Assembly (NCBI GenBank): GCA_027593175.1
Contig: JAQCJI010000010.1
Location: forward strand, 1 to 52,186
Direction of reading: 5' to 3'
DNA length: 52,186 nt
From: Bacteroidota bacterium
GTDB lineage: Bacteria > Bacteroidota > Bacteroidia > Cytophagales > Cyclobacteriaceae
A program made the translations under genes and the position numbers. Below, one piece after another: positions 2,260-18,173 of this stretch. Positions within the stretch are counted from its first letter, which is position 1; every line of letters starts with the position of its first letter. The notes below the pieces were generated by a model. That model saw only the letters and a list, made by a program, of their open reading frames with translations, did not search any database and was not told the origin of the DNA.

Positions 2260-4026
2260 TTAATTAATTCTTCTTAGGGTAATTAAATTAATCTCAAGAT
2301 CATCTGCTTTTTTCAAGGAGCTTACTCTTAATTTCAATTTTCCTTCTCCATTTTTTAAATCAATTCTTCCAAGTTTCACGGGCAAGAAATCCTTGGTGTA
2401 GGATTCAATTCTTAAAACCCGATCATTTTCCCTACCGATAAGCGGCTTTTCATTTGAAGTCAATAGGCTACTGGCTAATGAACTTCCCTCAAATTCAATA
2501 CTTATTTCAGATCCAATATTTGCATCACTGCAAGCATAGTATACTTCAATTTCAAAGGACCCGGATTCTTGGACAGAAACAGGCCAACTTATTTCATCTT
2601 CTGAATTTCTCCATTGTAAAAAGAAACTACTGTTTGGATGTCTATTAGAGCGAATGACATTTCCTTTTCCAGTGGCTTCCGATGAAGGTAAGATGGTCAG
2701 TTCCATTTTAGGATGGCCTAGAGGGAAAGGTCTGGTATCCTGTTCAGGTAGTTCATTTAATACGGTGCTTATCCATTCATCTTTCCAAGTAAGTAGTTTT
2801 TTATAATCGTCTGGATGCTCCTTACTGATGTCTCTGATTTGGGCTGGATCATTTTGCATATCGTACAATTTTTGATCACTAGAAAGCCGAAAGCGTTCAC
2901 TGCGTATACTTGTTTTGCCCGACCAATAGCTGGGTATGATTCTATCGTTTACTGCTGCATCTTGATTTTTTGTCAGTAGATTTTTAAGACTTAACCCATC
3001 AAAAGGCTTTGCTTGCTCATTTTGAATGCCAGCTAATTCTACGAGGGTTGGAAAAATATCAATTACTGATGCGATGTTTTTGACTGTTATTCCTGTTTCC
3101 AAATTCCCCTTCCATTGAATGATAAAGGGGGATCTTATCCCTCCTTCATCCGTGTTTCCCTTTATGCCCTTCATATTGCCGTTCCATCTATGCCCATTTG
3201 GGCCGTTATCTGAGAAATAAATGACAATAGTGTTTTTCATTAAGTTCAGTTCTTCTAATTTCTGAACGATTCTCCCAACATTCCAGTCTAAATTTTCTGT
3301 CATTGCCAATGCAGCTTTGGTATGCACGGAATCTTCTAGTTCAGGGAGCCTACCTTCTTGTGCTAATGGCTTGTTTTCATAGCGATCCCAAAATTCATCA
3401 GGAACTTGCATCGGGCTATGCGGCGTATTGTAGGGGAAGTAAGCCAAGAATGGCATTTCCTTATTATTTTCAATAAACTGAATTCCTTGTGAGGTCAAAT
3501 CATCAATTATGAATCCTTTTCCCTTTATTATTTCTCCGTTGTGCTCCAAAATAGGGTTGAAATAATCCGCCCAATGCCCTGCACAAAACCCATAAAATTC
3601 ATCAAATCCTCTTGTATTTGGATGGTATGGGGCCTGTCCTCCATTGTGCCACTTTCCAAAAATCCCAGTACGGTAGCCGTTTTTTTTGAATGCCTCTGCG
3701 AAGGTCACTTCATCTAGGTCCAGTCTTTCAAATCCGCTGGAAGTGCCAGTGACCCCGCCACGTACGTGGTATCTTCCTGTCAGGAGTTCTGCACGAGTGG
3801 GCGAGCACACAGGGCTGACATAAAATCTGTCTAGGACGATTCCTTCCTTTGCTAGCTTATCGATGTTAGGCGTATTAACTGTTTTATTTCCATTGAAGCC
3901 AAGATCACCCCATCCCTGATCGTCTGCTAGAATGATGACAATATTTGGATGTTTTGATTGGGCGGTGGTTCTCGCAGCGAATGCAAAACAAAATAACAGG
4001 GTAACTATAAGGTTAATTCTGGGCAT
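2260..4026 (-). CDS. Secreted family S1 sulfatase with C-terminal beta-sandwich-like extension
   Basis: A formylglycine-dependent arylsulfatase-type enzyme of 588 residues that hydrolyses sulfate esters, probably on sulfated polysaccharide or glycoside. Residues 1-23 form a signal peptide ending ARTTAQ. The metal-binding DD is at 35-36. The maturation motif CSPTR has the modifiable Cys at residue 74. GKWH is at 124-127, TPHSP near 201-205, and SDNG at 272-275, followed by a Lys-rich metal or sulfate-binding stretch. Residues from about 450 to the end exceed the catalytic fold and look like a carbohydrate-binding-type beta domain. It stands alone, without SusC/SusD or an FGE gene nearby, and its DNA is visibly more AT-rich than its neighbours, which suggests separate acquisition (inference). 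Confidence 0.92.
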   Translation of the reverse strand: MPRINLIVTLLFCFAFAARTTAQSKHPNIVIILADDQGWGDLGFNGNKTVNTPNIDKLAKEGIVLDRFYVSPVCSPTRAELLTGRYHVRGGVTGTSSGFERLDLDEVTFAEAFKKNGYRTGIFGKWHNGGQAPYHPNTRGFDEFYGFCAGHWADYFNPILEHNGEIIKGKGFIIDDLTSQGIQFIENNKEMPFLAYFPYNTPHSPMQVPDEFWDRYENKPLAQEGRLPELEDSVHTKAALAMTENLDWNVGRIVQKLEELNLMKNTIVIYFSDNGPNGHRWNGNMKGIKGNTDEGGIRSPFIIQWKGNLETGITVKNIASVIDIFPTLVELAGIQNEQAKPFDGLSLKNLLTKNQDAAVNDRIIPSYWSGKTSIRSERFRLSSDQKLYDMQNDPAQIRDISKEHPDDYKKLLTWKDEWISTVLNELPEQDTRPFPLGHPKMELTILPSSEATGKGNVIRSNRHPNSSFFLQWRNSEDEISWPVSVQESGSFEIEVYYACSDANIGSEISIEFEGSSLASSLLTSNEKPLIGRENDRVLRIESYTKDFLPVKLGRIDLKNGEGKLKLRVSSLKKADDLEINLITLRRIN

Positions 4027-4120
4027 TACTTGAATTTAATTTTAACCTAAACTAACTAAATAATTTCAGTAAACCTACGTTAAATCTGCATTTATGGGGT
4101 TTTTGGGATGGGTACGTGGG

Positions 4121-4155
4121 AAGAAAAAGCCCCTCAGCGCTTGATGCTGAGGGGC
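4121..4155 (-). terminator. Intrinsic terminator of ssrA
   Basis: A perfect 10-bp GC-rich stem (GCCCCTCAGC at 4129-4138, GCTGAGGGGC at 4146-4155) encloses a 7-nt loop. Read on the minus strand it is followed by a T-rich run (4121-4128). It sits about 33 nt beyond the tmRNA 3' end. Confidence 0.85.
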
Positions 4156-4187
4156 GGATTTCTAACTCAAATGGATCGAGTTAAACG

Positions 4188-4585
4188 TGGAGCTGGCGAG
4201 AGTCGAACTCGCGTCCAGATAAGGAAGCACCGTACCGTCTACATGCTTAGTCACCGGTTGGGTTTTTGACCAATCTATGCTGGGTGACACACCTGAGCTT
4301 GGCTTAGCGATTGATCTTAGACCTGCTTAATCGCATCACAAGCCGCATCCCGATCAAGTTGACACCCCAAACCCGCGCCGATCAGGCAAAACACGGTGGG
4401 ATGTGGCTGGGGAATCACTCTCGCAACTCAACCCTTTAAGCGATCTATCCTTTTAGGTTAGATTAAGCAGCCATGGCGTAAGAAGTTTCGCCATTTGTCT
4501 TTTGTATGAATTTTTTGAGGCCGTACATACTCCAGCCTGCATGCGAGCCCGATGATTACACCTACTGTCAAAACCGGTCAGCCCC
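4188..4585 (-). ncRNA. ssrA: Transfer-messenger RNA (tmRNA), tag GETSYAMAA
   Basis: The RNA runs on the minus strand from GGGGCUGA (4585) to CAGCUCC plus discriminator A (4188), about 398 nt. These ends pair as the seven-base acceptor stem. The T-arm sequence GAGTTCGACTC lies just before the 3' end. The reading frame for the tag is at 4492-4463 and encodes GETSYAMAA followed by TAA, matching the pattern of degradation tags ending in Ala-Ala. CCA is not encoded after the discriminator and must be added. The tmRNA with SmpB rescues stalled ribosomes and marks the peptide for proteolysis. The exact 5' end assumes RNase P cleavage at the acceptor stem. Confidence 0.95.
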
Positions 4586-4597
4586 ATAGATTAGGTA

Positions 4598-4605
4598 CAA
4601 AGGTA
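4598..4605 (-). promoter_or_regulatory. Promoter -7 box of ssrA (TACCTTTG)
   Basis: An exact match to the Bacteroidota TAnnTTTG element on the minus strand, 12 nt upstream of the mature tmRNA 5' end. No clear TTG element is seen at the usual distance. Confidence 0.6.
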
Positions 4606-4627
4606 GGTGGAAAAAGGTTCACTTTTT

Positions 4628-4900
4628 GTACGAAGTACGAAGAACAAGGTACAAAGTAGGAAATACAAGATATGAAGTACGATATCGAAGCCAATGTCGA
4701 ATGCCAAACGCAGAGTGAAGAATGCGGAATTGGAAACCGGGGAATATGCCACTAGCAGGCTTTTCAGCTCGGCAGCATTTAGTCTAGTCTCTTGCTTCTC
4801 GAAGCGTCTTGATACTTGATACTAGAGAATTGATACTTAATTGTACAAAGTGCCAGGTATGGATTCAGCCAATAAGCCCGTATTTTGTACCTCGTACTCA
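4628..4900. repeat. Degenerate GTAC-rich repeats in the ssrA-dnaX intergenic region
   Basis: The 394-nt gap between ssrA and dnaX has no credible gene. From 4628 to about 4690 it carries imperfect tandem copies of a unit like GTACGAAGTAC / AAGGTACAAAG. Near 4808-4840 there are repeats of TTGATACT. A further copy, CGTATTTTGTACCTCGTAC, sits at 4879-4897 and matches 45634-45652 at 18 of 19 bases. The function is unknown. Confidence 0.6.
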
Positions 4901-4979
4901 TTTTGGGTTTTGAATGAAAAATTAAATCCAATCCCAATTTCCTTACCTAAGAATATGGACTTTTTTATATCTTGCAGGG

Positions 4980-6125
4980 ATGGAAAATTTCGTTGTTTCG
5001 GCAAGAAAATATAGACCTGCAGATTTTAAGAGTGTCGTGGGGCAGCAGCACATCACGACCACCCTTCAGAATGCAATCAAAAACAAGCATCTAGCCCAAG
5101 CATTTCTTTTTTGTGGTCCAAGAGGAGTAGGCAAAACGACTTGTGCGCGTATCCTTGCCAAAACCATCAACTGCGAATCCATCACCAAAGACTTTGAAGC
5201 CTGTGGCACCTGTGCCTCTTGCGTATCCTTTCAAAATAACGCTTCCTTCAACGTCTACGAACTCGATGCAGCCTCCAACAACTCGGTGGACGACATCCGC
5301 AACCTGGTTGAACAGGTGCGCTATGCCCCTCAAAAAGGAGAATACAAGATCTACATCATCGATGAAGTGCACATGCTCTCTACCGCGGCCTTCAATGCCT
5401 TTTTGAAGACGCTGGAGGAGCCTCCTAAGTATGCCATCTTTATATTGGCCACCACAGAAAAACAAAAAATCATCCCGACCATTCTCTCACGATGCCAGAT
5501 TTTTGATTTCAACCGAATTCAAATCAAGCACATCGCTGAGCAACTCAAATACATTGCTGGCAAGGAAGATGTGGACTACGAGGAAGAAGCGCTCCGCCTA
5601 ATCGCCACCAAAGCAGATGGAGCCCTCCGAGATGCCCTGTCTATATTTGACTTAATCGTTACTTACTCGGCTGGCAAAAAAGTCACTTATCAAGAGACCA
5701 TCTCCAACCTCAATATCCTGGACTACGACTACTACTTTAAAGTGGTAGATGGACTCCTGGAAGAAAATATCTCGACTACGCTTCTCCTCTTTGATGAAAT
5801 CCTCAAAAAAGGCTTTGATGGGCATAATTTTATTGTAGGCTTAAGCGAGCACCTCCGCGATCTACTCGTGGGTAAGGATGAAGCCACTTTGGAACTGCTT
5901 GAAGTATCCGAATCAGCCAAGGAGCGCTACCTGGAACAAACGGCACGCGCCTCGGTGTCCTTCCTCTTGTCTGCATTAAATTTGGCTAATCAGTGTGATA
6001 TCCACTACAAGACCAGTAAAAACCAGCGGCTTCATGTGGAACTAACCCTGATGAAGGTGGCTAAACTCTCCCAGGCCTTCCGCCTAGCCACCCTCTTAGC
6101 GGTGGATGCAAAAAAAAAAGCCTGA
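4980..6125 (+). CDS. dnaX: DNA polymerase III subunit gamma (zero-frame product of dnaX)
   Basis: The clamp-loader ATPase that loads the sliding clamp at replication forks. The AAA+ Walker A motif GPRGVGKT is at residues 46-53, the zinc-binding Cys at 65, 75, 78 and 81, DEVH at 128-131, and the SRC arginine-finger motif at 170-172. Domain III follows to about residue 365. In the zero frame the protein ends after 381 residues with KKKA, at a TGA placed two codons beyond a run of ten A (6110-6119). The missing C-terminal part lies in the -1 frame right after that run. The zero-frame product therefore equals the short gamma form. The arrangement suggests slippage yielding gamma and tau, or a homopolymer sequencing error. 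Confidence 0.95.
   Translation: MENFVVSARKYRPADFKSVVGQQHITTTLQNAIKNKHLAQAFLFCGPRGVGKTTCARILAKTINCESITKDFEACGTCASCVSFQNNASFNVYELDAASNNSVDDIRNLVEQVRYAPQKGEYKIYIIDEVHMLSTAAFNAFLKTLEEPPKYAIFILATTEKQKIIPTILSRCQIFDFNRIQIKHIAEQLKYIAGKEDVDYEEEALRLIATKADGALRDALSIFDLIVTYSAGKKVTYQETISNLNILDYDYYFKVVDGLLEENISTTLLLFDEILKKGFDGHNFIVGLSEHLRDLLVGKDEATLELLEVSESAKERYLEQTARASVSFLLSALNLANQCDIHYKTSKNQRLHVELTLMKVAKLSQAFRLATLLAVDAKKKA
6110..6120 (+). promoter_or_regulatory. Putative slippery site in dnaX (A10G)
   Basis: Ten consecutive A followed by G, read in frame as GCA AAA AAA AAA GCC TGA. One extra A in the mRNA, or a -1 ribosomal shift, joins the gamma frame to the open tau frame. Similar A-rich slippery runs at this point of dnaX are known from Thermus (transcriptional slippage) and E. 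coli (A AAA AAG, -1 ribosomal shift). A small GGAG/CTCC hairpin and a CTTGA/TCAAG hairpin lie just downstream. Confidence 0.6.
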
Positions 6126-6760
6126 TTGAGGAGCAAAAATCTCCACAACCCACACAAGCTCTTGAAGTACCTCAAGCTGTTGCTCCCACTCCTGTAGAAG
6201 CGCCCACTTTCCAAGAGGCTCCTGCTGTTCCTGCAGCAACCAAGTTGAGCCCTTTAAAACCCACCTTTTCGATTCCAAGTAGTCTCGCACAAACCAAGAA
6301 ATTAGGAGAAACCAACACTCCAGAAGAGGTTCTTGGGGTTGCAGAGATAGTGGAGAAGCTAAGCTACACTTCAGCTCCACCTGCTCAAGAGATTCCTTTG
6401 ACGCAAGAATTGCTGGATCAAGCAATTTTTTCGATTCAGGAGGTTTACCGCAATGCCAACAAAAATTTAGAGCTTACCCTTTTGGATCAAGAAATTAGGG
6501 TTCAAAATGGGGAAATCACGCTGCAAGTAAGCGGTTCGATTCAAGAGGATATCGCGCAAAAGATGAAGCCAGAGCTTATTGGCTTGGTACGGAAATTTAC
6601 CGGAGCATCTTCCTTTACTATAAGTCTAGTGCAGCAAGAAGAGGTGGCGGACGAAAAGGGGAAATTGTACACCAGCACGGACAAACTTAAATTTTTACAT
6701 GAAAAGTACCCTGCCTTGATGGAGTTGCAGCAAAAATTTGACCTGGATATAGATTTCTAA
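6119..6760 (+). CDS. dnaX: C-terminal tau-specific region of DnaX in the -1 frame
   Basis: Open in the frame one base back from dnaX, starting within the A10 run. It begins SLIEEQKS, passes through a Pro/Ala/Glu-rich linker (about 70 residues), and ends with an ordered domain terminating in YPALMELQQKFDLDIDF, which resembles the C-terminus of Bacteroidota DnaX. There is no separate start codon with a credible context. The earliest internal ATG (6245) lies inside the linker. Joined to the upstream part it gives a protein of about 593 residues, a normal tau length. In other bacteria this region contacts the polymerase alpha subunit and the helicase. Its preserved reading frame and normal ending argue that it is expressed. 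Confidence 0.8.
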   Translation, partial: SLIEEQKSPQPTQALEVPQAVAPTPVEAPTFQEAPAVPAATKLSPLKPTFSIPSSLAQTKKLGETNTPEEVLGVAEIVEKLSYTSAPPAQEIPLTQELLDQAIFSIQEVYRNANKNLELTLLDQEIRVQNGEITLQVSGSIQEDIAQKMKPELIGLVRKFTGASSFTISLVQQEEVADEKGKLYTSTDKLKFLHEKYPALMELQQKFDLDIDF

Positions 6761-7749
6761 AAATCGAGAGAGATCCCAAAGTTGATCAGATTCTGAAATT
6801 GAATCGCCCGCTTGCTACTGCCATCATCCTGCTTGATGAGGACCTGTTCATCGTAGATGAGTGCGGTTTCAATTCGGGTAGAAATGTACTTATTGACCTT
6901 CATTCGGATAAGTGAGTTGAAGTTGACCACCAGGTTACCAAATCGCTCGTAGTTGGAAAATAGGTTCAGGTCGGCCTTCCAGGTGACATTTTCCATCAGG
7001 ACCACATCTACCCCTCCTAGGGCAAGTGACATCCCCGCTTCTGCTCGTACATTTTCTCCTGGGATCACCCCAAAAGCCCCTGCACGACTTAAGGAATCAT
7101 TCAAGACCAGCGTAAATCGTCCAGTAAATGGAGATATAATTACCGAAATCTTGCCCTTGTCTTCAAAGCTTCTTCGGTAGTTGATACCGGTAGAGGATTG
7201 GAGGTATCCTGGCGCAAGGAGGTCAGAAATTTTAGTACGAAGTTCGTTTTCTGACCCAGCAGGTTTGGTGTATTTATATCCTGATGCCAACTGAGTACGG
7301 GCATCTAGCTGGGTAGTCAGAAAGAATTTTTCCGAAAGTTGCCGCCCATAGTTACTCACGAAAATAAAGTTGTCGTTGGTTTTTCTGGTTTTGTAGTCCC
7401 GCTCATTTTGCCGATTAAATCCCAAGTTGACCGTCAGCTGGGTATCCCAAACCTTGCTATCTTTTTTGAAATTGGCAAAAAGGGTAGCACCGGTATTCAG
7501 CGCAAAGGAACCTGTGCCACCTGCTGCCCAGTTGCTTAGGGTGACCTGTTGAACATTTAGCGTGTAAGTTCCTCCAGTCTTCCAGAAAGTTTCTTTTACA
7601 GGCTCTTGAATAAGTAGCGAATCCCCCAACATCACCAAGGTGTCCCGATCGATGATTACCGTATCGGGTACAATTTTTCGGTCCTGCGCCTTAACAAAGG
7701 AAGAGCTGCTAAGAAATAACAGACCGATTAGGAAAAAGCGATACCGCAT
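6757..7749 (-). CDS. DUF3078 domain outer-membrane protein
   Basis: 330 residues with an N-terminal signal peptide ending VKAQ (residues 1-22). The rest alternates polar and hydrophobic residues, and the protein ends in Phe (LNFGISLDF), as expected for an outer-membrane beta-barrel. The motif LSNWAAGGTGSFALNTG near residues 71-87 is typical of DUF3078 proteins, which are common in Bacteroidota and have no known function. It converges on dnaX with a 4-nt overlap of the ends and follows the LysM transglycosylase by 18 nt, so the two may be cotranscribed. Confidence 0.88.
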   Translation of the reverse strand: MRYRFFLIGLLFLSSSSFVKAQDRKIVPDTVIIDRDTLVMLGDSLLIQEPVKETFWKTGGTYTLNVQQVTLSNWAAGGTGSFALNTGATLFANFKKDSKVWDTQLTVNLGFNRQNERDYKTRKTNDNFIFVSNYGRQLSEKFFLTTQLDARTQLASGYKYTKPAGSENELRTKISDLLAPGYLQSSTGINYRRSFEDKGKISVIISPFTGRFTLVLNDSLSRAGAFGVIPGENVRAEAGMSLALGGVDVVLMENVTWKADLNLFSNYERFGNLVVNFNSLIRMKVNKYISTRIETALIYDEQVLIKQDDGSSKRAIQFQNLINFGISLDF

Positions 7750-7767
7750 GGGATAGGGGTGATCAAA

Positions 7768-9333
7768 TCAACGGTTCAAAATACGTAATTTCTGTCCTAC
7801 AGTGATCAAGTTTTGACTGCCGATGCCGTTGAGCTGTTTGAGTTCCTCAACGGATAGTGCGTATTTTTTGGAGATAGAAAATAAGGTTTCACCCGCGCTA
7901 ACCGTGTGGTAGGAGTAGGCGGGGGTTTGGGTCTGCACGTTTTGTGAAGGGGTATGTTCTACTTTAGATTGGGCGGTGGGTTGTGTAGGGCTACTGGTTA
8001 CTGGGTCGGGCTCCGAATAAATAGGTATTTCTATCCCTCTTTTTCTAGGTTCCTTCAGGTTGAGAACCATACCAGGGCGAAGGTCGGACTCTTTTCGAAT
8101 TCTATTTTTAGATTTTAAAGAGGCCAGACGGATGCCGTATTTCTGTGAAATAGACCAGAGTGTTTCCCCTGCTTCCACCACATGGGTATCCACTTCTGCA
8201 CTCGGACGCTTCCTTTGGGTATAGTAATAGGCTCCCTGTTCGATCTGTTCTGTTTCGGGGAGGTCATTTAATTTGATCAATCGTTTTTCTCGGATTCCAA
8301 TATCTTCCGAAAACTTGGTAGTTGAATTTGTGGCAGCGGCCTGTATTCCTTCCAAGTTATTCACTAGAATTTGCTTGCGCTGAGTGGCTTTGCTAGTGTT
8401 CCCTGTGATTTTAGGATAGGAGTTGGCTGGTTTATATGCGGGAGAAGATTTAGTGGGTGCTGCTTGAGAAGAACCCACTGTCGTTTGATTTGAGCTGCTC
8501 ACGGGGGCCTCAGGAAGTCTAGTCCCTTTAACAAAGAAAAGAGTAAAGGAGCCAGCAGGAATTTTCCCGTTTACCGCCCATTTGTTGTATTCGATCAAGT
8601 GTGCTTCAGTGACTCCAAATTGCTTTGCAAGGCTGGCAAAGGAGGTCGGTCCTTGAATCTGAATCTCGGATAGACGGGTGGAATTGGAGGTGAAAATAGC
8701 AATTGAAGACTGATAGGCAATTTTGTGTGCCAAATACTTTTTAAAGTACCAATGGGTGTTGCGGTCAATATTCACTACTTTTTGGCCTGCATATTGGTTG
8801 CCAAAATAGGCTTTAGCTCCTCCCAATCCCATCTGATAGGCGACCAGTGCGGTCATCCAGTTGTTGAGTACTCCTTGGTGTTTTTTAAGGTAAATTGCCG
8901 CACCACGCGAGGAGGCAACAATGCTCTTCCGTTCGTCCACTTGTCCATCTACTCGTAGGCCTACTTCTTCTGCAGTACCTTGTTTAAACTGCCAGAAGCC
9001 TACTGCGTAGGAGGTAGAGACGGCATCAGATACCAGCCCGCTTTCTTGAATGACCAAGTACTTGATTTCGTCAGGAACATCTTGACTGCGCAGCTCACGC
9101 TCCACGATGGGGAGGTAGAGGTTAATACGCTCCGCTTTTACCTTAAAGTAGGCGGCATTTCGGTAGAGTGCATCCACATCCAATTGAATTTCCCGTTGGG
9201 CTTGTGGGTGGATTTTCAAGGTTAAATCCGCAAATTCCATCTCCAAGGGAACCTGGGGAATCTGTGCCTGAAGAAGCTGACTTCCAGAAAAAAGGAGAAA
9301 AAATAAAAATTGAAAATGAAGTTGGGCTTTCAT
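7768..9333 (-). CDS. Lytic transglycosylase with LysM domains (MltD-like)
   Basis: A secreted peptidoglycan-cleaving enzyme. Residues 1-24 are a signal peptide. An SLT domain spans about residues 70-215 with the catalytic Glu in IQESG (residue 97) followed by the AVGFWQF motif (110-116). A degenerate LysM-like segment lies near 231-270, and two good LysM domains near 386-430 and 475-521, each with the GETLxSISxKY pattern that binds GlcNAc-containing glycan. A Ser/Thr/Pro/Gln-rich linker separates them. The overall plan matches MltD, which cuts between MurNAc and GlcNAc to give 1,6-anhydroMurNAc ends. The gene lies 61 nt downstream of the O-methyltransferase gene and may belong to the same transcript. 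Confidence 0.92.
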   Translation of the reverse strand: MKAQLHFQFLFFLLFSGSQLLQAQIPQVPLEMEFADLTLKIHPQAQREIQLDVDALYRNAAYFKVKAERINLYLPIVERELRSQDVPDEIKYLVIQESGLVSDAVSTSYAVGFWQFKQGTAEEVGLRVDGQVDERKSIVASSRGAAIYLKKHQGVLNNWMTALVAYQMGLGGAKAYFGNQYAGQKVVNIDRNTHWYFKKYLAHKIAYQSSIAIFTSNSTRLSEIQIQGPTSFASLAKQFGVTEAHLIEYNKWAVNGKIPAGSFTLFFVKGTRLPEAPVSSSNQTTVGSSQAAPTKSSPAYKPANSYPKITGNTSKATQRKQILVNNLEGIQAAATNSTTKFSEDIGIREKRLIKLNDLPETEQIEQGAYYYTQRKRPSAEVDTHVVEAGETLWSISQKYGIRLASLKSKNRIRKESDLRPGMVLNLKEPRKRGIEIPIYSEPDPVTSSPTQPTAQSKVEHTPSQNVQTQTPAYSYHTVSAGETLFSISKKYALSVEELKQLNGIGSQNLITVGQKLRILNR

Positions 9334-17474: not shown

Positions 17475-18173
17475 TTATTCTAGTTCAAATTTATAGCCTA
17501 CCCCTTTGACCGTAGTGATGTAATCTTCCCCAATTTTTTCACGCACCTTTCGTATGTGAACATCCACTGTCCGGGCCAAAACAATTACCTCTATTCCCCA
17601 AATATTGTACAAAAGCTCATCTCGGCCAAACACTACATTGGGACTTTTGGCTAAAAAGTGCAGGATTTCAAATTCTTTTTTTGGTAGCGTTATCCTCCTT
17701 CCCGCTTTGAAAACGGTGTAACTGCTGCGGTCGATGTTCAAATCCCGTATTTTTATTTGCTCTTTTTCCTGATCTTTTTTAGAACCTCTTCTGAAAAGGG
17801 CTGCAATGCGGCTCAATAAAGCGCGTGGTTTGATAGGCTTGGTTATGTAGTCGTCTGCTCCAATATCGAAAGCAGCTACCTCTGAGTACTCTTCGAGCCG
17901 AGCGGTTAGGAAGATAATAAAGGCATGCTTGAGTTCTGGAATTTGTCGAATTTGGAAGCAGGTTTCTACTCCATCTTGATTGGGCATCATGATGTCTAGT
18001 AGAATGAGATCGGGCTTAAATTTGATTGCCGTTTTTACCGCTTTGTGTCCGTCTTCTGCAGTTGCTACATAATACCCCTCTTTTTCCAGGTTGTACTTTA
18101 AAATTTCTACAATGTTTGGTTCATCATCGACAACCAATACTTTGATTTTTTTTTTGTCTGTCCTAAAAATCAT
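17475..18173 (-). CDS. OmpR/PhoB-family response regulator
   Basis: 232 residues. The receiver domain (about 10-125) contains DDE at 16-18, phospho-acceptor Asp60 in LLDIMMP, the Thr of FLTAR and the Lys of ITKPIKP. A winged-helix DNA-binding domain (about 140-230) ends in TTVKGVGYKFE. It is first in the operon with the adjacent kinase, which is its likely partner. The pair resembles PhoBR/RprXY-type systems, but the signal and targets cannot be read from this window. Confidence 0.94.
   Translation of the reverse strand: MIFRTDKKKIKVLVVDDEPNIVEILKYNLEKEGYYVATAEDGHKAVKTAIKFKPDLILLDIMMPNQDGVETCFQIRQIPELKHAFIIFLTARLEEYSEVAAFDIGADDYITKPIKPRALLSRIAALFRRGSKKDQEKEQIKIRDLNIDRSSYTVFKAGRRITLPKKEFEILHFLAKSPNVVFGRDELLYNIWGIEVIVLARTVDVHIRKVREKIGEDYITTVKGVGYKFELE

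Follow-up and report, generated by a model that had tools for sequence, protein, structure and literature searches.

The dnaX gene of a Cyclobacteriaceae genome raises the question of how both DnaX forms, gamma and tau, could be made from a gene whose reading frame closes just after ten consecutive A's. The gene lies in a stretch of 52,186 nucleotides (the window), which forms contig C25 in a draft genome of 2.49 Mb. Among named records, Algoriphagus and other Cyclobacteriaceae MAGs come closest to this dnaX, with protein identity of at most 97%. The features of the gene are as follows.

4980..6125, + strand: dnaX zero-frame ORF with a gamma-type product of 381 aa, ATG at 4980 and TGA at 6123-6125
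6110..6119, + strand: A10 run (putative slippery run), GCA AAA AAA AAA GCC TGA, read off the sequence
6123..6125, + strand: gamma stop codon TGA in the zero frame, second codon after the A10 run
6127..6129, + strand: first stop of the third frame (the one besides zero and tau), TGA, 7 nt past the run
6119..6760, + strand: -1 frame with the tau C-terminal part, 213 codons plus TAA at 6758-6760, first codon AGC at 6119

The junction reads ...GTG GAT GCA AAA AAA AAA GCC TGA. The coordinates and lengths given for dnaX in an earlier note on this DNA (4980-6760, ten A's, and a zero frame of 381 residues) were correct, and the zero-frame stop that it had placed at the second codon after the run was found there. 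Together, the zero frame and the -1 frame would give a full tau of about 593 aa. Upstream of dnaX, a tmRNA gene with the tag GETSYAMAA is located at 4185-4585 on the - strand.

Sequence evidence for the gamma and tau parts

The zero-frame protein was matched to NCBIfam NF011531 (gamma/tau, 614 positions) over model positions 1-364 with 714.7 bits (cut-off 685), and to TIGR02397 with 432.1 bits (cut-off 250), so that the N-terminal AAA+ clamp-loader part of DnaX exceeds the curated cut-offs. Pfam matches of the same ORF were PF13177 (158 bits) and PF22608 (49.9 bits), and E. coli-type DnaX chains in the PDB matched residues 4-359 at an E value of about 1e-70. The -1 piece alone was matched to NF011531 positions 419-614 with 39.6 bits (E 2.8e-10), a score far under the whole-protein cut-off. 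When the tau part of the window gene was compared with close relatives, dN was well below dS in 7 of 12 pairs, those in which dS could be estimated, and over the last 130 alignment columns dN/dS averaged about 0.12 (4 of 9 pairs with estimable dS). The tau part is evidently under purifying selection, and the -1 frame, described in the earlier note as open to a normal DnaX C-terminus, encodes a real tau C-terminus by the NF011531 match and the low dN.

A predicted model of the tau C-terminal domain was of moderate confidence (pLDDT 77.1, pTM 0.55). None of the matches in a fold search with this model reached E <= 0.001. A weak one, at rank 20 (E 0.21), was to E. coli tau domain V (2aya), and the best VIA-align Z was 7.9, with 4tps_D (SirA-DnaA domain I complex). 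Searching the PDB with a profile of aligned tau C-termini gave no match below E 0.09.

Conservation of the A run and drift of the tau frame

Homopolymers are error-prone in sequencing, and the window genome, 83.5% complete, is split over 117 contigs, so a sequencing or assembly error in the run, or a decayed gene, had to be weighed; the earlier note had held a homopolymer error to be the main alternative. The layout was common to 56/56 same-genus genomes in which the junction is present (the window's included), with A10 in 52, A11 in 4, and tau in the -1 frame; this count excludes G054, whose sequence ends before the junction, and 3/58 same-genus genomes that gave no dnaX match. In the four A11 genes, the base following the usual ten A's is A instead of G. 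Four of the genomes with run and split are single-contig (G009, G021, G033, and G037), and all 32 records named Cyclobacteriaceae, some of them the same genomes, likewise have A10 with tau in -1. These genomes, single-contig ones included, refute the homopolymer error, purifying selection on the tau part speaks against decay and error alike, and the probability left to this explanation is practically nil. Because all 56 genomes share A10 or A11 with tau in -1, the split layout of the window dnaX is clearly not chance.

A run under nine was found in none of the 74 genes with at least 76% identity to the window gene (the window-type, Cyclobacteriaceae-like genes), and Lys codons elsewhere in the gamma part of these genes are AAA and AAG at 1124:795. 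The AAA codons 378-380 were invariant at the codon level in 65 genes of 381 aa, a set chosen with a run of at least nine and in which residues 370-377 were each less than 90% conserved and hence unscored. Long homopolymers are also prone to replication slippage, and a run whose length differed between cells could toggle tau on and off at the DNA level. Such phase variation is highly improbable, as run and frame agree in 56/56 genus genomes; tau is expected to be essential, so a lasting off state should be costly.

The earlier note had proposed that related dnaX genes be compared for a conserved run and frame split, and both were kept throughout the genus, where neither of the contrary results it had named appeared. 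Relatives with a continuous frame do occur in other families, and 43 of the 50 found among 89 same-class genomes of other orders retain a run of at least nine; since most of these surveyed continuous relatives have the long run, they fit slippage rather than refute it.

The survey covered 302 loci (L003-L304), which gave 279 distinct dnaX genes after removal of 21 duplicates and 2 cut loci; L175 and L103 were counted among these, with no clear tau frame after their short A runs. In 236/279 genes, nine or more consecutive A's were present between residues 335 and 480 (203 A10, 17 A9, 14 A11, and 2 A12), usually at residues 352-420, with L165 beyond this range at residue 463. The run begins in all three codon phases. 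With the tau frame taken as the longest frame after the run, tau was in frame 0 in 96 genes, in -1 in 138, and in +1 in 2. A tau C-terminal profile, built with the use of 63 of the tested rows, matched the assigned frame in 231/236 genes and never a different one; the 5 genes without a match are all frame-0.

These in-frame genes bear on whether the tau C-terminal part could be a separate protein made by internal initiation rather than a fusion. A TTG-start ORF at 6245-6760 would allow it. The gamma frame is unbroken in 96 run>=9 genes, with an in-frame match to the tau C-terminal profile in 91, and NF011531 spans the continuous relative L066 end to end; internal initiation is accordingly left with a very small probability.

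A less biased sample consisted of 89 same-class genomes of other orders (89 of 90 drawn; G211, with an open frame of 590 aa, was left out). Of these, 82 had a run of at least nine, and by tau frame they divide into 43 (frame 0), 37 (-1), and 2 (+1). The remaining 7 genes are all continuous with shorter runs, and 4 of the 7 belong to family f30. In other classes of the same phylum, the run was present in 7/26 genes, these genomes having been picked from the top of the E-value list or for their split look and hence being non-random.

Several genes without the usual run were recorded. The f30 genes (L198, L199, L201, and L279) are continuous, and none of their A runs in residues 335-480 exceeds six. 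L144 and L165 are continuous with their longest A or T runs (10 and 12) further downstream, at residues of about 574 and 463. The zero frame of L103, an Arcicella MAG, closes after 382 aa. The 75 nt ahead of its stop lack any run of five or more A's; a G-rich stretch is present instead, and about 200 codons are open in another frame, which may be an error or another recoding. In G094 (1.2 Mb genome), contig C1:359920-360864 gave a second DnaX-like match at 54% identity with an open frame of 544 aa.

A FastTree tree of 243 proteins (those of the 279 genes with a complete N-terminus) placed at least 14 tau-frame changes among the run>=9 genes, with 12 changes among the 189 genes with exactly A10, and a treekit 'quick' tree of 83 representatives also gave 14. 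Among exact A10 genes, the coded families f2, f10, and f15 each contain frames 0 and -1 and f26 contains all three; a 'Cytophagaceae' entry was ignored because its basis is L036, a MAG labelled Spirosoma with 95% identity to the window gene. Since the same run length is found with all three frames, miscounts of the run alone cannot yield the pattern. The two +1 genes (L209 and L210) represent one lineage, being two genomes with the same local sequence, and carry an extra C ahead of an unchanged A10 that is lacking in their relatives L248 and L259, so their +1 frame is not explained by run miscounts either. In a large part of the class, the run length of dnaX is, by these comparisons, kept while the frame of tau is not.

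Possible transcriptional slippage or ribosomal frameshifting at the junction

The fixed run with a changing frame fits transcriptional slippage better than ribosomal frameshifting, and dnaX in the window most probably makes both DnaX forms by transcriptional slippage at the A10 run. RNA polymerase would slip on the ten A's and yield mRNAs that vary in A count; those retaining ten, or having a length that leads into the third frame, would stop within a few codons and give gamma, and those with one A more or two fewer would enter the -1 frame and give tau. Slippage with a zero-frame gamma and a shifted tau, the reading already suggested in the earlier note, thus has the best support among those considered. 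The junction has one of the marks of programmed slippage genes, a conserved uninterrupted homopolymer of about 8-9 or more. If slippage fills all three frames, the frame of tau in the DNA would hardly matter, and the run would stay near ten A's while the frame changes; because repeated frame switches would be costly were slippage rare, slippage should also be efficient. The sequences of the junction and its relatives directly show the split, how well it is conserved, that tau is encoded, and the statistics of run and frame; slippage, its efficiency, and the two protein products are what we infer from them.

If all three frames are reached, both non-tau frames are expected to be closed. Across the 236 genes, non-tau stops followed the run at medians of 3 nt (nearer) and 13 nt (farther), whereas control positions inside the tau part of these genes gave 10 and 48 nt; the genes are related, so the counts are not independent. 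In the 74 window-type genes, the farther non-tau stop was at a median of 7 nt (control 48 nt). Against this support for slippage, the A7 genes of Pontibacter, in which slippage on the run is less likely, also have close stops, 2 and 7 nt after the run.

The alternative for the same products is programmed -1 ribosomal frameshifting on A_AAA_AAA in a faithful mRNA, with tau made on shifting and gamma on stopping. All 236 run>=9 genes hold this heptamer, and 41 additionally hold A_AAA_AAG; tau is in -1 throughout the genus and in all window-type genes, where a -1 ribosomal shift would reach it as well as slippage would, and the +1 frame is confined to a single lineage. A seven-base site, however, needs no ten uninterrupted A's in changing codon phases, nor would one expect the tau frame to move among 0, -1, and +1 while the run persists, or the third frame to be closed, which a pure -1 shift would not need.

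Possible stimulators of a ribosomal shift were examined on both sides of the run. An SD-like sequence 5' of the run was present in 29/74 window-type genes, a mild excess over the 20.7 +/- 3.2 expected from synonymous redraws (maximum of 300 redraws, 31), with GAG over GAA (p 0.002), which may indicate a ribosomal contribution and counts against slippage. The window itself has GGTGGA there, outside the SD motif set used, and the sequence was not raised in frame-0 genes (7/96, control rate 4.9%). Bacteroidia ribosomes are described as having an occluded anti-SD and generally failing in SD recognition, although prfB frameshifting is common in the class despite this (both from the relevant part of PMC8710568).

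Folding 3' of the window run gave z values of -0.19 (60 nt) and 0.02 (90 nt), with no clear stem-loop by a method that is blind to pseudoknots. As a group, the A10 genes likewise had no clear 3' structure, the mean z being -0.29 in the 74 window-type genes (control -0.02; z below -2 in 4% vs 0%), -0.26 in other -1 genes (control -0.21), and -0.36 in frame-0 genes (control -0.11). The mean was -1.65 in 19 genes with A7 or A8 (control 0.00), mainly owing to Pontibacter. An Rfam scan of 4000-7800 at E values up to 1 found nothing but the tmRNA, and a scan of 10 related loci (7 Pontibacter) at gathering scores found a single match, a tRNA. Taken with the precedents in the literature given below, ribosomal frameshifting as the source of tau in the window is unlikely but keeps a real share of the probability.

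Other A10-type runs in the window genome were sampled from 26 forward and 26 reverse matches, which overlap at longer runs, with loci obtained for 30. The sample held 22 distinct runs, 14 outside and 8 inside ORFs of at least 90 aa, dnaX being among the 8; this is weak evidence that A10 is avoided within genes of this genome. Elsewhere in the window, a T10 on the + strand (A10 in the coding strand) occurs at 18146-18155, 18 nt after the start of an ORF at 17475-18173 on the - strand, which encodes 232 aa and resembles a response regulator by eye (DKKKIKVLVVDDEPNIVEIL). On contig C1 of the same genome, near 6817 (L305), a T10 lies within an ORF of 427 aa and may be a further slippage site or chance.

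Pontibacter, known systems, and meaning

The 11 Pontibacter dnaX genes have A7 in place of A10, and tau is in frame. The run and its candidate pseudoknot are located as follows.

3600-3725 in L083, L084, L086, L087, L088, L092, L093, L094, and L102: A7 with candidate pseudoknot
3612-3737 in L077 and L079: A7 with candidate pseudoknot

The -1 frame meets a stop two nt after the A7. Located 3' of the run, GGTAG and CTACC enclose a GGCACC that is able to pair with a downstream GGTGCC in an H-type layout. The second stem is invariant in 11/11 genes; in the first, L077 and L079 lack the outermost pair. Single-sequence folding gave z below -2 in 6/11 (L086 was at +0.43), and RNAalifold found one of the two proposed stems plus other pairs. 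As the pairs hardly vary, covariation speaks neither for nor against the candidate pseudoknot. A ribosomal frameshift that would make gamma is accordingly a candidate mechanism in Pontibacter, and the genus may offer a natural contrast of transcriptional and ribosomal recoding within the same gene.

The arrangement of the window gene is already known, since a 2013 study describes dnaX genes of two ORFs with ten A's, and a reversed layout was mentioned in 2016. With GeneTack, Antonov et al. (2013, PMC3711429) found 17 two-ORF dnaX genes from 12 genera, of which nine have 10 A's, and they suggested that transcriptional realignment is at work; the section 'dnaX fs-genes' names three Chlorobi-type species with 7-9 A's. 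The window gene resembles these in its DNA-level -1 frameshift, its poly-A run, the zero-frame gamma stop close behind it, and the recoding needed for tau. That section is silent on in-frame or +1 versions with the same A10, on third-frame closure, and on frame drift. In the passage of a 2016 review that mentions the reversed dnaX layout (PMC5009743), tau seems to derive from ribosomal frameshifting, a wording that favors the ribosomal alternative over slippage.

In Thermus thermophilus, slippage on an A9 run gives gamma and tau (Larsen et al. 2000, as cited in PMC1088944 and PMC5009743). The window gene is alike in its long A run, in the slippage proposed here for gamma and tau, and in nearby stops in both non-zero frames (for Thermus, as described in PMC5009743). 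In Thermus, however, tau is the zero frame and slippage gives gamma, whereas in the window the zero frame is gamma and slippage would make tau. The E. coli gene, as described in the dnaX parts of PMC3711429 and PMC5009743, uses a ribosomal -1 shift at A_AAA_AAG with a 5' SD-like sequence and a 3' stem-loop, the shift making gamma; this is a precedent for ribosomal frameshifting in the same gene, with two products from one mRNA region, but the window, by sequence folding, is predicted to have no clear 3' structure. In Shigella flexneri mxiE, according to its treatment in PMC1088944, slippage is likewise needed for the longer product of two overlapping ORFs, in another gene and on a run of U's. 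A class-wide pattern of fixed run and drifting frame in dnaX was not found in the open-licence literature searched, mostly titles and abstract starts.

For the class, taken from its named relatives to be Bacteroidia, we lean, with some reserve, towards a history in which frame-scrambling slippage at a fixed A10 is ancestral for dnaX and efficient enough to leave the frame of tau nearly neutral and switched often among 0, -1, and +1, and in which a ribosomal frameshift with a pseudoknot took over at the A7 of Pontibacter. If this is true, a large bacterial class would depend, for an important replication gene, on an error-prone step of RNA polymerase, and the two halves of that gene would no longer need one reading frame. 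Gene finders would truncate such dnaX genes. Frame drift while the run stays fixed would, as evidence from evolution, point to very efficient slippage.
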